Of a stretch of 64,000 nt of DNA, positions 3,903-58,639 are shown piece after piece; position 1 is the first letter of the stretch; the number at the start of each line of letters is the position of its first letter. This DNA comes from Calothrix sp. PCC 7716 (GTDB taxonomy: Bacteria; Cyanobacteriota; Cyanobacteriia; Cyanobacteriales; Nostocaceae), in contig NZ_AP025018.1 of the NCBI RefSeq assembly GCF_019977735.1, forward strand, positions 2,418,001 to 2,482,000, written 5' to 3'. The position numbers were made by a program, and so were the translations under genes. The notes beneath the pieces were generated by a model, which worked only from the letters and a program-made list of their open reading frames with translations, searched no databases and had not been told where the DNA came from.

Positions 3903-3932
3903 TTGACATATTTTGTAGTACAAGTGTAGTAT
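3903..3932 (+). promoter_or_regulatory. promoter with a LexA-like box
   Basis: A consensus -35 TTGACA lies at 3903-3908 and a -10-like TAGTAT at 3927-3932, spaced 18 bp. Between them is TAGTAC-AAGT-GTAGTA (3916-3931), a near-dyad overlapping the -10. It differs at one conserved base from the cyanobacterial LexA consensus RGTACNNNDGTWCB. A GAGG Shine-Dalgarno follows at 3955-3958, before the ATG at 3965. This suggests damage-inducible or otherwise repressed expression of the downstream block. The promoter is read directly from the sequence; LexA control is inference. Confidence 0.5.
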
Positions 3933-3964
3933 GTAATATAGAAACAAACTAAACGAGGAAAACA

Positions 3965-4087
3965 ATGCAAGCAGCTTACTTAACAATCAACCAACCGCAT
4001 CAAAACACTACATATACCAACCAAGTAAGTAAACTAGCCATTGTTTTCCAATATGAGCGAACATCGTTTGGGACAGATAGTAATTGA
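3965..4087 (+). CDS. 40-residue leader ORF of the translation-factor island
   Basis: The ORF begins at an ATG with a well-placed GAGG 6 bp upstream and encodes MQAAYLTINQPHQNT through FGTDSN before TGA. Its last 35 bp overlap the start of the next gene in another frame. This is the arrangement expected for a leader peptide or for translational coupling. I do not recognise a domain. It could also be the remnant of an older N-terminus. Confidence 0.45.
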   Translation: MQAAYLTINQPHQNTTYTNQVSKLAIVFQYERTSFGTDSN

Positions 4088-4736
4088 GCGTCCACGTAAC
4101 GGAAGAAGAATAAGCCAAAAGAAAGTAACAGGGTATAAAAAGTTTCTCAACCAAATTACGCTTGAAGCAAGCGAAGACGGATTATTTAGTCATTACTTGA
4201 TAAAAAACAAGTGGCGTACAAAATATTTTTCTGATAACTTATCACCATTAGAGCGTTGGTTAAAATCCAAAGTTGGGCAACCTTGGGATAGTACATACAG
4301 CGAACTATGTCAAAAAGTAGAAACCAAAACGCTTGCAGGGCAACACCTGATATCTCATTTATGGCAAATGGTAGAGCGTCATGTAATATTTATTGATGGA
4401 CTACCGTATTCTCGACAAAATTTATACCACGCTTATCCTCTAGGAAAATGGAAAGATGCACTATACGTACATCCAGAAACAGGCATTCTTTGTTTAGCGA
4501 AAAAGCTACCAAGAGCTAACAAGAAAAAACCTGATGATTTGGTAGTAATAGATAAATACAAAGAGTACCGTAAAATAAATGAATTATGGTACTTGCTTAC
4601 TTTCGATATTCCATACGGCGCCATAAATAAAAAATTGCATTCAGAAATTAGAAACATAGATGGAAGAATTTACATAGCTCGCAGGCGCCAGTGTAACAAA
4701 AAAGAAATCAAATTGATTTTGCAACAAATTAAATAA
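4053..4736 (+). CDS. conserved protein of unknown function in the translation-factor island
   Basis: I start at the ATG at 4053 (MSEHRLGQIVIERPRNG, 227 residues). The frame is also open from a TTG at 4041. The protein is strongly basic at its start. Its centre carries QPWDSTYSELCQ, GQHLISHLWQMVERHV and YVHPETGILC, followed by a lysine-rich stretch and a C-terminal IYIARRRQCNKKEIK. No membrane segment or known nuclease motif is visible. The basic charge and its place in front of L7/L12 and EF-Ts paralogues suggest a role with RNA or ribosomes, but that is inference. It is the first full-length gene after the LexA-like promoter and is probably cotranscribed with the next two genes. Confidence 0.75.
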   Translation: MSEHRLGQIVIERPRNGRRISQKKVTGYKKFLNQITLEASEDGLFSHYLIKNKWRTKYFSDNLSPLERWLKSKVGQPWDSTYSELCQKVETKTLAGQHLISHLWQMVERHVIFIDGLPYSRQNLYHAYPLGKWKDALYVHPETGILCLAKKLPRANKKKPDDLVVIDKYKEYRKINELWYLLTFDIPYGAINKKLHSEIRNIDGRIYIARRRQCNKKEIKLILQQIK

Positions 4737-4822
4737 TCCCCCCAACCCCCCTTAATAAGGGGGGCTTTAAGAAAAACTTTCTTTTCTCCCCCCCTTAATA
4801 AGGGGGGGTAGGGGGGGATCAT
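4737..4822. repeat. pair of CCCCTTAATAAGGGG inverted repeats
   Basis: Two copies of the palindrome CCCCCTTAATAAGGGGG, flanked by further C and G runs, sit between the unknown gene and the L7/L12 paralogue. Each can form a GC-rich hairpin. A third copy lies at 24530-24556. They may weaken transcription into the downstream genes or simply be interspersed repeats. Confidence 0.8.
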
Positions 4823-4843
4823 AATTAAATAGGAACAAAAAAA

Positions 4844-5221
4844 ATGTCATACAAAACAATAGAAATACTCGAACAACTCAAAACCTTATCCGCACTCGAA
4901 ACAACCGAACTAGTTGAGGATATTAAAGATACATTCAATTTACATCCTGCATTTAGTTTCACAACTTGTTTCCCCATACCTCTAATAGATTACGACTATT
5001 CGGCGCCCTTTGAATTTGATGTAGTACTTTTATCGGCGCCAGCTGATAAAAAAATATCAGTATTAAAAGCAGTGCGTCAAATAACAGATTTAGGTTTAAA
5101 AGAAGCAAAAGACTTTGTGGAGTCACTACCAAAAACAATCAAATCTGGAATTATTAAACCCGAAGCTGAAGATATTAAAAAGCAACTTGAAGATGCAGGC
5201 GCCTCCGTTTCAATTAGATAA
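4844..5221 (+). CDS. divergent paralogue of ribosomal protein L7/L12
   Basis: This 125-residue protein has the two-part layout of bL12. The N-terminal dimerisation helices run about residues 5-32 (IEILEQLKTLSALETTELV). The C-terminal domain covers about 57-125, with FDVVLLSAPADKKISVLKAV, GLKEAKDFVESLP and EDIKKQLEDAGASVSI. The C-terminal domain is what recruits translational GTPases to the ribosome. The hinge is abnormal: instead of a flexible Ala/Gly-rich linker it reads FSFTTCFPIPLIDYDY. The gene is not in a ribosomal protein operon (no rplJ or rpoB nearby), so it is a second copy. It lies 45 bp upstream of an EF-Ts paralogue. Confidence 0.9.
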   Translation: MSYKTIEILEQLKTLSALETTELVEDIKDTFNLHPAFSFTTCFPIPLIDYDYSAPFEFDVVLLSAPADKKISVLKAVRQITDLGLKEAKDFVESLPKTIKSGIIKPEAEDIKKQLEDAGASVSIR

Positions 5222-5265
5222 TAATGATTTAAAACCTAGCTAAATAAAGAAGGTGTAAATGTGAA

Positions 5266-5859
5266 ATGACGAACATATCAGCAAAATTAGTCCAAACGTT
5301 ACGCAAGAAAACCAATGCTGGAATGATGGACTGTAAAAAAGCATTAATTGCGAGTAACGGTGACATTGGTCAAGCAGAAGACTGGCTAAGAAAAAAATGT
5401 GTTACTTTACTAGGAAAAATTCGAGAGCGTACTACGGCAGAAGGGGTAATTGGTAGCTATATACACACAGGTGGAAAAGTCGGTGTTTTAGTAGAAGTTA
5501 ACTGCGAAACAGATTTTGTCGCGCGTACAGAAGAATTTCAAAACCTTGTACGTAACATCGCAATGCAAATCGCAGCATCTCCAGATGTGGAGTATGTAAA
5601 AGTCCAAGATATTCCTACTGATGTAGTAGAAAAAGAAAAATCTATTGCAATGGGACGCGATGACTTAGCAAATAAGCCAGAAAACATTAGAGCCAAAATT
5701 GTTACAGGCAGAATTGAGAAGCTTTTAAAAGAAATGTGCTTACTCAACCAACCTTATGCGCGCGACTCCAATATAACAATTGAAGAACTAATTAAGCAAA
5801 ACATTGCCAAACTAGGAGAAAACATCCAAGTCAAACGATTCGTTAGATATATGATGTAG
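5266..5859 (+). CDS. paralogue of elongation factor Ts
   Basis: This 197-residue protein has the EF-Ts layout. An N-terminal UBA-like domain ([22 protein letters not shown]) is followed by the core with the nucleotide-exchange motif [13 protein letters not shown] near residues 84-96 and a C-terminal [16 protein letters not shown]-Ts recycles EF-Tu by ejecting GDP. The core is intact, so exchange activity is plausible. The divergence (for example [16 protein letters not shown] where normal copies carry AGKK) and the absence of rpsB upstream show that it is not the housekeeping tsf. It follows the L7/L12 paralogue and probably shares its transcript. Confidence 0.92.
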
Positions 5860-24529: not shown

Positions 24530-24556
24530 CCCCCTTAATAAGGGGGGTTGGGGGAT
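24530..24556. repeat. CCCCCTTAATAAGGGGG inverted repeat
   Basis: This is a third copy of the palindrome seen twice at 4737-4822, placed between the convergent LysR gene and the next minus-strand gene. Its position suits a bidirectional terminator. Confidence 0.75.
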
Positions 24557-29526: not shown

Positions 29527-29841
29527 ATGTCCGCAATAATAATGAGTACCCCTGTTCCACCAATATTCACAAAGAGAGACGACAGAAAGGCTGTACAACA
29601 ATCAAAGCTCAAAATTCGTTGCCGTCTACAAGACTTGATGGATGCTCAAGAATTGACTAAAACTGCATTATCTCAAGCTACAGGACTAACTACGGCAGCT
29701 ATTAGAGGATTGTGCGAGAACACTGCAAAACGTTATGACGTTGATACTTTAGCTGCTTTATGTGAATTTTTTGGGTGTGATCTGAATCTTTTGTTTGAGA
29801 TTATACCTAGGAACGGGAAAGATGATTTTTCTAATTCTTAG
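29527..29841 (+). CDS. Cro/C1-type XRE transcriptional regulator
   Basis: This protein of up to 104 residues has an XRE helix-turn-helix: IRCRLQDLMDAQELTKTALSQ, then ATGLTTAAIRGLCENTAKRY and TLAALCEFFGCDLNLLFE. An alternative ATG at 29542 is possible. It is divergent from the 444-residue gene and may repress it; this is inference from position. Confidence 0.88.
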   Translation: MSAIIMSTPVPPIFTKRDDRKAVQQSKLKIRCRLQDLMDAQELTKTALSQATGLTTAAIRGLCENTAKRYDVDTLAALCEFFGCDLNLLFEIIPRNGKDDFSNS

Positions 29842-58207: not shown

Positions 58208-58639
58208 TTAATTTTGGATTTCAATCCAACGACGGTAAAGTTTTTGAATCTGCTTTAGAATAGTGTCGGCTACTGGCTTGTTAGAATCTTTGCTATCAGA
58301 TAATTTCAACAGCTTACTCAGTAGCTTCGCTTCTTCACTCGCAACATCACCGTCACTATATATCAACCCACTAATAGACTCAATCAACTTTTGACAATCT
58401 TCGTGAGTCGGATGTTCTCCTAAGTACTCATGTACCCAGTCATAAAACTCGTTTGGTTTCACTGATAAAAATTCATACAGAAACGGTCTTATTTCCGGGT
58501 CGTTTGTCAAATTATTCGCTTGAGCGATTTGATGTAGATATTTACGCTCTTCAGGTTGGATTATACCGTCAATCCATGCGGCGCCTATCAGTATTTTTAC
58601 TTGTGTTTTTACGCTCGAATCGGTTCTCATATACTGCAA
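58208..58639 (-). CDS. TerB-like tellurite resistance domain protein
   Basis: This 143-residue protein has two TerB-type half repeats, VKILIGAAWIDGIIQPEERK and LIYSDGDVASEEAKLLSKLL. The D-G-x-x-x-x-E-E pattern probably binds a divalent metal. The start is MQYMRTDSS or the Met three residues later. TerB domains occur in stress-response proteins; a specific role is unknown. Confidence 0.88.
   Translation of the reverse strand: MQYMRTDSSVKTQVKILIGAAWIDGIIQPEERKYLHQIAQANNLTNDPEIRPFLYEFLSVKPNEFYDWVHEYLGEHPTHEDCQKLIESISGLIYSDGDVASEEAKLLSKLLKLSDSKDSNKPVADTILKQIQKLYRRWIEIQN

Follow-up and report, generated by a model that had tools for sequence, protein, structure and literature searches.

Gene content of the locus

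The present analysis concerns a 64,000-nucleotide stretch of the genome of Calothrix sp. PCC 7716 (contig NZ_AP025018.1, positions 2,418,001 to 2,482,000 of the forward strand), hereafter called the window, in which open reading frame (ORF) coordinates and gene calls place three genes in one apparent operon: a protein without a family, designated U, a paralogue of ribosomal protein L7/L12 (L12) and a paralogue of the elongation factor EF-Ts (Table 1). The L12 paralogue scores 107.6 bits against TIGR00855 (cut-off 84.4), with its N-terminal dimerisation and C-terminal factor-binding domains both above curated cut-offs, while the EF-Ts paralogue scores 176.2 bits against TIGR00116 (cut-off 104.05); in the window copies, L12 retains its C-terminal domain and EF-Ts its TDFV motif. 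Searches of Pfam, NCBIfam, PHROGs and PADLOC gave no family match for U, and a profile of U had no match in the PDB up to an E value of 1. The window holds no tRNA gene, so that the locus is without the dense run of tRNA genes that marks a long tRNA array (trn operon), and neither rtcB nor prfH, the pair that marks an RtcB2-PrfH module, is present among the ORFs adjoining the operon.

Table 1. Features of the operon and its upstream region (positions are those of the window).
Feature	Position	Strand	Basis
sigma70-type promoter TTGACA-18-TAGTAT	3903-3932	+	10 of 12 consensus positions
Putative TrcR operator GTAGTACAAGTGTAGTAT	3915-3932	+	17 of 18 bases equal the reverse complement of the TrcR motif published in PMC10272220
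Leader ORF of 40 codons, in the +1 frame and running into the U start	3965-4087	+	ORF preceded by a Shine-Dalgarno (SD) motif, shared with 33 other loci
U, 227-amino-acid protein without family	4053-4736	+	begins MSEHRL; QCNKKEI near the C-terminus; conserved residues across homologues
Palindrome CCCCCTTAATAAGGGGG, two copies in the U-L12 gap	4747-4806	+	same palindrome again at 24530-24546
L7/L12 paralogue with few Gly, Ala and Met residues in its hinge	4844-5221	+	family models, hinge composition
44-bp gap where genus-mates have gene S	5222-5265	+	S in five genus-mates (L124-L128)
EF-Ts paralogue, 197 amino acids, TDFV motif kept	5266-5859	+	family model, translation

Second copies of L7/L12 and EF-Ts

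The same genome contains a separate rplL gene (L002), which follows rplA and rplJ and lies 95 kb downstream, as well as a separate tsf gene of 315 amino acids behind rpsB (L003). Because these copies are present elsewhere, the L12 and EF-Ts genes of the window are extra copies, that is, paralogues and not the housekeeping genes, as had been claimed in a first-pass annotation of this DNA. The L12 paralogue shares 45% identity over 130 residues with the housekeeping copy of its own genome, and the EF-Ts paralogue 63% over 139 residues together with a weaker second piece.

The trees that the first-pass annotation had called for likewise separate the paralogues from the housekeeping copies on one branch each. 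In the L12 tree a single branch divides 32 paralogues from 31 housekeeping copies with support of 100/97, or 99/98 when the hinge is removed, and in the EF-Ts tree 12 paralogues are divided from 51 housekeeping copies with support of 88/93. The housekeeping sets consisted of the best-scoring 30 loci plus the own copy, with 20 further loci added for EF-Ts, and 12 of the 13 intended EF-Ts paralogues were used (L148 was left out).

The hinge of the L12 paralogue is unusual, as had been noted before and taken to indicate a specialised role, and the wider comparison bears this out, given that the same odd hinge is common to all 32 paralogues examined. The median fraction of Gly, Ala and Met in the hinge is 0.04 among paralogues and 0.59 among housekeeping copies, and charged residues account for 0.39 and 0.19, respectively; the window copy, at 0.08 for Gly, Ala and Met, does not have the Gly/Ala-rich hinge of the 31 housekeeping copies (0.36-0.66). 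With regard to constraint, the ratio of nonsynonymous to synonymous substitution rates (dN/dS) relative to the window is 0.11-0.25 for U in four genus-mates, the U gene of L127 being excluded owing to a stop codon, and 0.12-0.22 for the EF-Ts paralogue in five.

A TrcR-type operator at the promoter

The promoter looks genuine, although its match is weak when taken alone, with 11 promoter-like sites between 3700 and 6000 as compared to 7.5 in shuffled sequence. It is overlapped by a putative operator for TrcR, whose core TGTAGTAT at 3925-3932 overlaps the -10 box. In Anabaena, the main text of Wang et al. (2023) places the TrcR motif before trcR itself, as shown by electrophoretic mobility shift assay and footprinting, and describes the same overlap of the TrcR core with the -10 box of the trn tRNA operon (PMC10272220). 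According to the same source, chloramphenicol, spectinomycin and streptomycin lower the level of TrcR protein and repression is relieved (PMC10272220). When the operator was written as the pattern GTADTACAAGTGTAGTAT, in which one position allows A, G or T, two sites without mismatch were found in the 12.37-Mb genome, one being the box in the window and the other lying upstream of the trcR homologue. With up to three mismatches the pattern has 54 matches in the genome as compared to 26 for a reversed control, and the weaker operator sites are therefore to be regarded as candidates only. Within the genus, the 18-mer operator is kept without mismatch in the window, with one mismatch in one genome and with three in three others, and NIES-4105 keeps the 8-base core alone.

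A homologue of trcR is thus present in the same genome, and two lines of evidence support its identification as TrcR. Its matches among phages are nine Nodularia phage records and none other, including the two Nodularia phages named in the Anabaena study as carriers of a TrcR homologue (PMC10272220), and an HNH gene follows the divergent neighbour of the trcR homologue, an arrangement also reported there for Anabaena (PMC10272220). The homologue occurs in 92 of 100 related genomes, including all 24 that carry U. From sequence comparison, the regulator of the window operon is likely TrcR and not LexA, and regulation by TrcR is proposed here on the basis of the operator together with the work in Anabaena. 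The earlier claim of stress-type control is upheld by this match, considering that TrcR of Anabaena responds to translation inhibitors.

Other operator-like sites of this genome, with two to three mismatches (L057, L062, L059, L054), are found near genes for an RNA ligase, an APH-family phosphotransferase, AbiEii and a 276-amino-acid PheRS-like protein.

Conservation of the operon in related cyanobacteria

U is encoded in 24 of the 100 related genomes, and a scan of GTDB 220 yielded 87 stretches with a relative of U, the 80 best being retained. Every one of these is cyanobacterial by its record title, in a search whose cyanobacterial peptides could hardly reach beyond this phylum. The closest relatives of U are those of Calothrix sp. 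PCC 7103, a genus-mate that has the operon, and Dulcicalothrix desertica. Across the 80 stretches, U is accompanied by a gene designated T in 59, by R, a Ro60-like gene, in 52, by the L12 paralogue in 25 (plus L127), by S, which encodes about 140 amino acids, in 20 and by the EF-Ts paralogue in nine, and at least one tRNA gene is found in 65. The most complete order is T-(tRNA)-U-(tRNA)-L12-S-R-EF-Ts (L038). The gene order around U is hence conserved among relatives, which answers a question left by the first-pass annotation, and of the three-gene set that it had described the linkage of L12, EF-Ts and U stands, but the set has proved larger, with S, R, T and tRNAs in relatives and EF-Tu in the tRNA array of the Calothrix genome itself. 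S has probably been lost from the window operon, where the short gap between L12 and EF-Ts takes its place, and R, present in 32 of the 100 relatives, is missing from all seven genomes of the genus.

Operator-like sites recur at these loci. Of 74 loci, 43 have a site with at most three mismatches in the 1.5 kb upstream of U, where dinucleotide shuffles give 0.45 on average, and in a downstream control region (3-4.5 kb past U) such a site occurs at one of 67 loci. Six of the 80 loci, with less than 1500 bp upstream, were dropped from the first count, and the control comprises the 67 loci that are long enough. Where U follows a tRNA array, with 18 (L168), 16 (L182), 24 (L190) or six (L200) tRNA genes before it, an operator-like site with two to three mismatches precedes the first tRNA by 89-91 bp; L189 has 32 tRNAs, and its operator-like site lies 1.3 kb ahead of the first of them.

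Two families of tRNA-like scaffolds, with 5' ends UACAUACUAGC or UACAUACUUGC, were also observed around T and U (L124-L203, for example L164:6330 and L158:7759). They are mostly near-identical apart from their varying anticodons, but a few (L189, L200) look unlike the rest. Scaffolds before T occur at 33 loci, with a CUA anticodon in 16, and scaffolds after U at 43 loci, with UAA in 10, UGA in eight, GAA in seven, UAG in four and others; processing punctuation, suppressor tRNAs and decoys are candidate roles.

The tRNA array and a second EF-Tu

The genome has a tRNA array of its own, which starts about 3 kb from trcR and comprises 23 tRNAs (24 in a 16-kb stretch, one of them apart), with a PARG-type gene, an RNA ligase gene and a 211-amino-acid ORF among the tRNAs and an EF-Tu gene at its end. 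This array EF-Tu (L290:13080-14306; G000:C1:2892579-2893802) is 83% identical to the other EF-Tu of the genome. Counterparts of 96-97% identity were found in G002-G006 and one of 85% in G028, and in a quick EF-Tu tree, from which seven of 34 loci were dropped on account of an unmatched start pattern, one branch separates seven paralogues from 20 housekeeping copies (support of 99 in the Shimodaira-Hasegawa-like approximate likelihood ratio test). The EF-Tu paralogue lies 9-11 kb from trcR in G002, G003, G004 and G006, and on a separate contig from it in G005. An operon-type EF-Ts paralogue is present in all seven genomes with the EF-Tu paralogue, although six of these are one genus, so that two lineages are represented.

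The genome G028 unites these elements in a single 20-kb stretch with three operator-like sites: an exact operator at trcR, a second site, with two mismatches, ahead of an array that includes genes for PARG, RNA ligase and EF-Tu, and a third, with three mismatches, ahead of T, two tRNAs, R and the EF-Ts paralogue.

The leader ORF

The leader ORF that had been reported to overlap the start of U is present, and such an ORF in the +1 frame, preceded by an SD motif, was found at 34 of the 56 loci considered (55 of the 80 together with the window), as compared to a mean of 1.35 and a maximum of four in shuffled upstream DNA. In the other overlapping frame such an ORF is found at two of these loci versus 1.65 expected, and an SD-like motif belonging to U itself is present at five. 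This pattern points to translational coupling of the leader with U, or to control of U by the leader.

A 10-bp helix between the leader start and the U start was predicted in 21 aligned loci, none of whose pairs showed a compensatory change; conservation of the first six codons is moderately higher (0.83 versus 0.65), and z-scores of the folding energy range from -3.6 to +1.8 over 22 loci. Because compensatory changes are nil, codon conservation is moderate and z-scores are mixed, an RNA attenuator formed by pairing of the leader and the U start is retained as an idea only, while support for the leader ORF as such is good.

Homologues of U beyond cyanobacteria

Two more distant homologues of U were identified in the collections searched, one in the Myxococcus phage Mx1 (E value 3e-8 over 40% of U; L204:7848-8612) and the other on a Novosphingobium plasmid (31% identity over 61% of U; L205:7983-8459), and a scan of IMG/VR viral contigs found no relative. 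On the plasmid the U homologue is followed by genes for RtcB, an RF-1-domain (PrfH-like) protein and HD and PhyH-family proteins, with RtcR on the opposite strand and a gene for a Ro60 vWA protein nearby. This neighbourhood, a single record, suggests that U has a role connected with damage to ribosomes or tRNAs. The Ro60-like protein encoded there also aligns over its vWA part with R of the cyanobacterial operons (hhalign probability of 86.6%), and RNA ligase genes lie within 4 kb of U in two cyanobacterial loci (L032 and L044).

With respect to the RtcB-related genes themselves, the PrfH-like gene of Novosphingobium is spread over two frames, and the match to one RtcB homologue of the Calothrix genome (G000:C1:3790003-3792060; L287, L289) is split by about 940 bp inside a single frame of 717 amino acids, perhaps an intein.

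Proposed function and alternative explanations

Taken together, these data make it rather probable that the island is an operon of the TrcR regulon, encoding a TrcR-repressed back-up kit for elongation and RNA repair, and this spare translation set would probably be switched on by a block of protein synthesis. Under normal growth, TrcR bound to the -10 box would keep the operon silent. When elongation is blocked or the RNAs of translation are damaged, the level of TrcR would fall, as reported in Anabaena and supposed here for Calothrix, and the operon would then be made along with the tRNA array, the array EF-Tu and RNA-repair genes. Judging from the families to which they belong, the L12 paralogue could join or replace the ribosome stalk and the EF-Ts paralogue could recharge EF-Tu, probably including the EF-Tu of the array, and with these spare parts elongation would restart; it may reasonably be supposed that the island alters the GTPase centre of the ribosome, as had been suggested for it. 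U, a relative of one protein in a repair cluster of the RtcB-PrfH type, might assist in recognising or repairing ribosomes or tRNAs that have been damaged, and the RNA ligase, plus R in other genera, may act on damaged RNA alongside it. In this reading we infer the induction, the entry of the L12 paralogue into ribosomes, the activity of the EF-Ts paralogue and the role of U.

A more far-reaching version can be put forward tentatively, and we would not expect it to hold in full. It supposes that some cyanobacteria hold in reserve, under one repressor, a silent second elongation apparatus made up of about 23 tRNAs, EF-Tu, EF-Ts, L12, RNA ligase and U. Under translation stress, altered "emergency ribosomes" would be assembled and would have an EF-Tu/EF-Ts pair of their own; U would mark or repair ribosomes that are damaged, and the leader peptide would tune U to ribosome stalling.

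Several observations weigh against the back-up kit. At the level of regulation, the TrcR homologue has no match to the Pfam RHH models, nor to any other Pfam family; the candidate site before the tRNA array of this genome has four mismatches, although its core is exact; no operator with up to three mismatches lies near either of the two RtcB genes of the genome; and 31 of the 74 loci have no such site within 1.5 kb upstream of U, eight of them having one farther up. Many U loci are moreover close kin, so that the counts are not independent. With respect to gene content, the spares are optional, a second L12 being found at the operon in 14 and EF-Ts in nine of 100 genomes, and the EF-Tu paralogue occurs in seven of the 60 genomes searched, belonging to two lineages. 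EF-Tu was found beside U in none of 144 stretches of the U and R regions (L031-L050, L080-L203), at E values up to 1e-10 or 1e-5, and the same stretches and thresholds gave no RNA ligase, PARG or 211-amino-acid ORF of the array type. The window locus itself is without S, R, T and tRNAs and carries palindromes between U and L12; the L12 paralogue is less constrained (dN/dS of 0.31-0.65 between the window and five genus-mates), and U of the genus-mate genome G005 bears an in-frame stop. Finally, the link of U to RtcB and PrfH comes from one record, and R matches TROVE structures in the PDB weakly (E value of 0.027) and neither TROVE nor vWA_Ro60 in Pfam. The lesion in G005 (G005:C70:13380-14165; L010, L030) is an insertion with an in-frame TAG that splits the gene.

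An unlikely but still serious alternative is that the products form an RNA-repair machine in which U, R, S and the two paralogues recognise and repair damaged ribosomes, L12 and EF-Ts serving to recruit or clear factors without a general role in elongation. It would account for the Novosphingobium gene cluster and for the RNA ligase genes near U in two loci and in the array of this genome, but U, L12 and EF-Ts persist even though R is absent from the seven genus genomes and S from the window, and the two RtcB genes are without the operator. Less probable again is a translation brake or decoy, whereby the paralogues slow or park ribosomes, or serve as decoys for toxins that hit translation factors. 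Such a role would fit a hinge nearly devoid of Gly, Ala and Met and more charged, as well as the tRNA-like elements with varying anticodons in relatives, yet it sits poorly with the retention of the factor-binding region and the TDFV motif, and with the association of the set with tRNA genes and, in two lineages, with an EF-Tu.

Long tRNA arrays spread horizontally, and it is conceivable, albeit doubtful, that the protein genes are passengers of such arrays which are degrading in Calothrix. In favour of this are the patchy distribution of U, the lack of S, R, T and tRNAs in the window, the stop within U of G005 and the palindromes between U and L12. The palindrome occurs at three places in the window (4747-4763, 4790-4806 and 24530-24546), where none is expected from shuffling; the U-L12 gap measures 107 bp as compared to about 10-70 bp in five genus-mates. 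Against it, the dN/dS values of U and of the EF-Ts paralogue are far below 1, and in the trees of L12 and of EF-Ts a deep branch has all the paralogues on one side. SOS control through LexA, as the first-pass annotation had it, is highly improbable, given that the single-mismatch box at 3917-3930 is one of a class found in the window at chance frequency (21 versus 20.0 expected at one mismatch to the LexA consensus) and the TrcR motif fits far better, at 17 of 18 bases, and it was rejected. Exact matches to the same consensus are found elsewhere in the window, at 29545-29558 and 58423-58436.

If the back-up kit exists as proposed, a bacterium could swap the ribosome stalk, EF-Tu and the factor that recycles it under stress, through the same repressor that governs its spare tRNAs, and trcR would offer a clean genetic switch with which to test ribosome heterogeneity. 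It would also give a first functional context to U, whose family is unannotated in the libraries searched and has a proteobacterial member encoded beside RtcB and a PrfH-like gene.

Relation to known systems

The similarity to Ro60/TROVE proteins lies in R of the relatives, which aligns over its vWA part with a Ro60-like protein and weakly with TROVE structures, but R differs in having no match to the corresponding Pfam models and in being absent from the genus. As for the RtcB2-PrfH ribosome repair module, the Novosphingobium homologue of U stands directly before RtcB and a PrfH-like gene, while the portion of the description considered here mentions no third protein (PMC9223846) and the window operon has neither RtcB nor PrfH.

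Two further systems are concerned with translation stress. An inducible long tRNA array (trn operon or L-array), reportedly described by Santamaria-Gomez in 2021, resembles the present case as a silent set of supernumerary translation parts that is switched on by translation stress, and U follows such arrays in several genomes; the window differs in having a protein elongation factor and a stalk protein and no tRNAs. A search of titles and the beginnings of abstracts, whose scope did not extend to the main tRNA-array study, returned no description of inducible L12, EF-Ts or EF-Tu spares, and part of the finding on protein spares may already be in print.

The TrcR regulon, which like the inducible tRNA array is already known, resembles the Calothrix operon in its operator sequence and in the way this overlaps the -10 box, and it includes a tRNA array and genes for RNA repair and translation (PMC10272220). 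Its account for Anabaena PCC 7120, as far as the main text and Table 1 go, contains neither L12 nor EF-Ts (PMC10272220), whereas the operon in Calothrix consists of U, L12 and EF-Ts.

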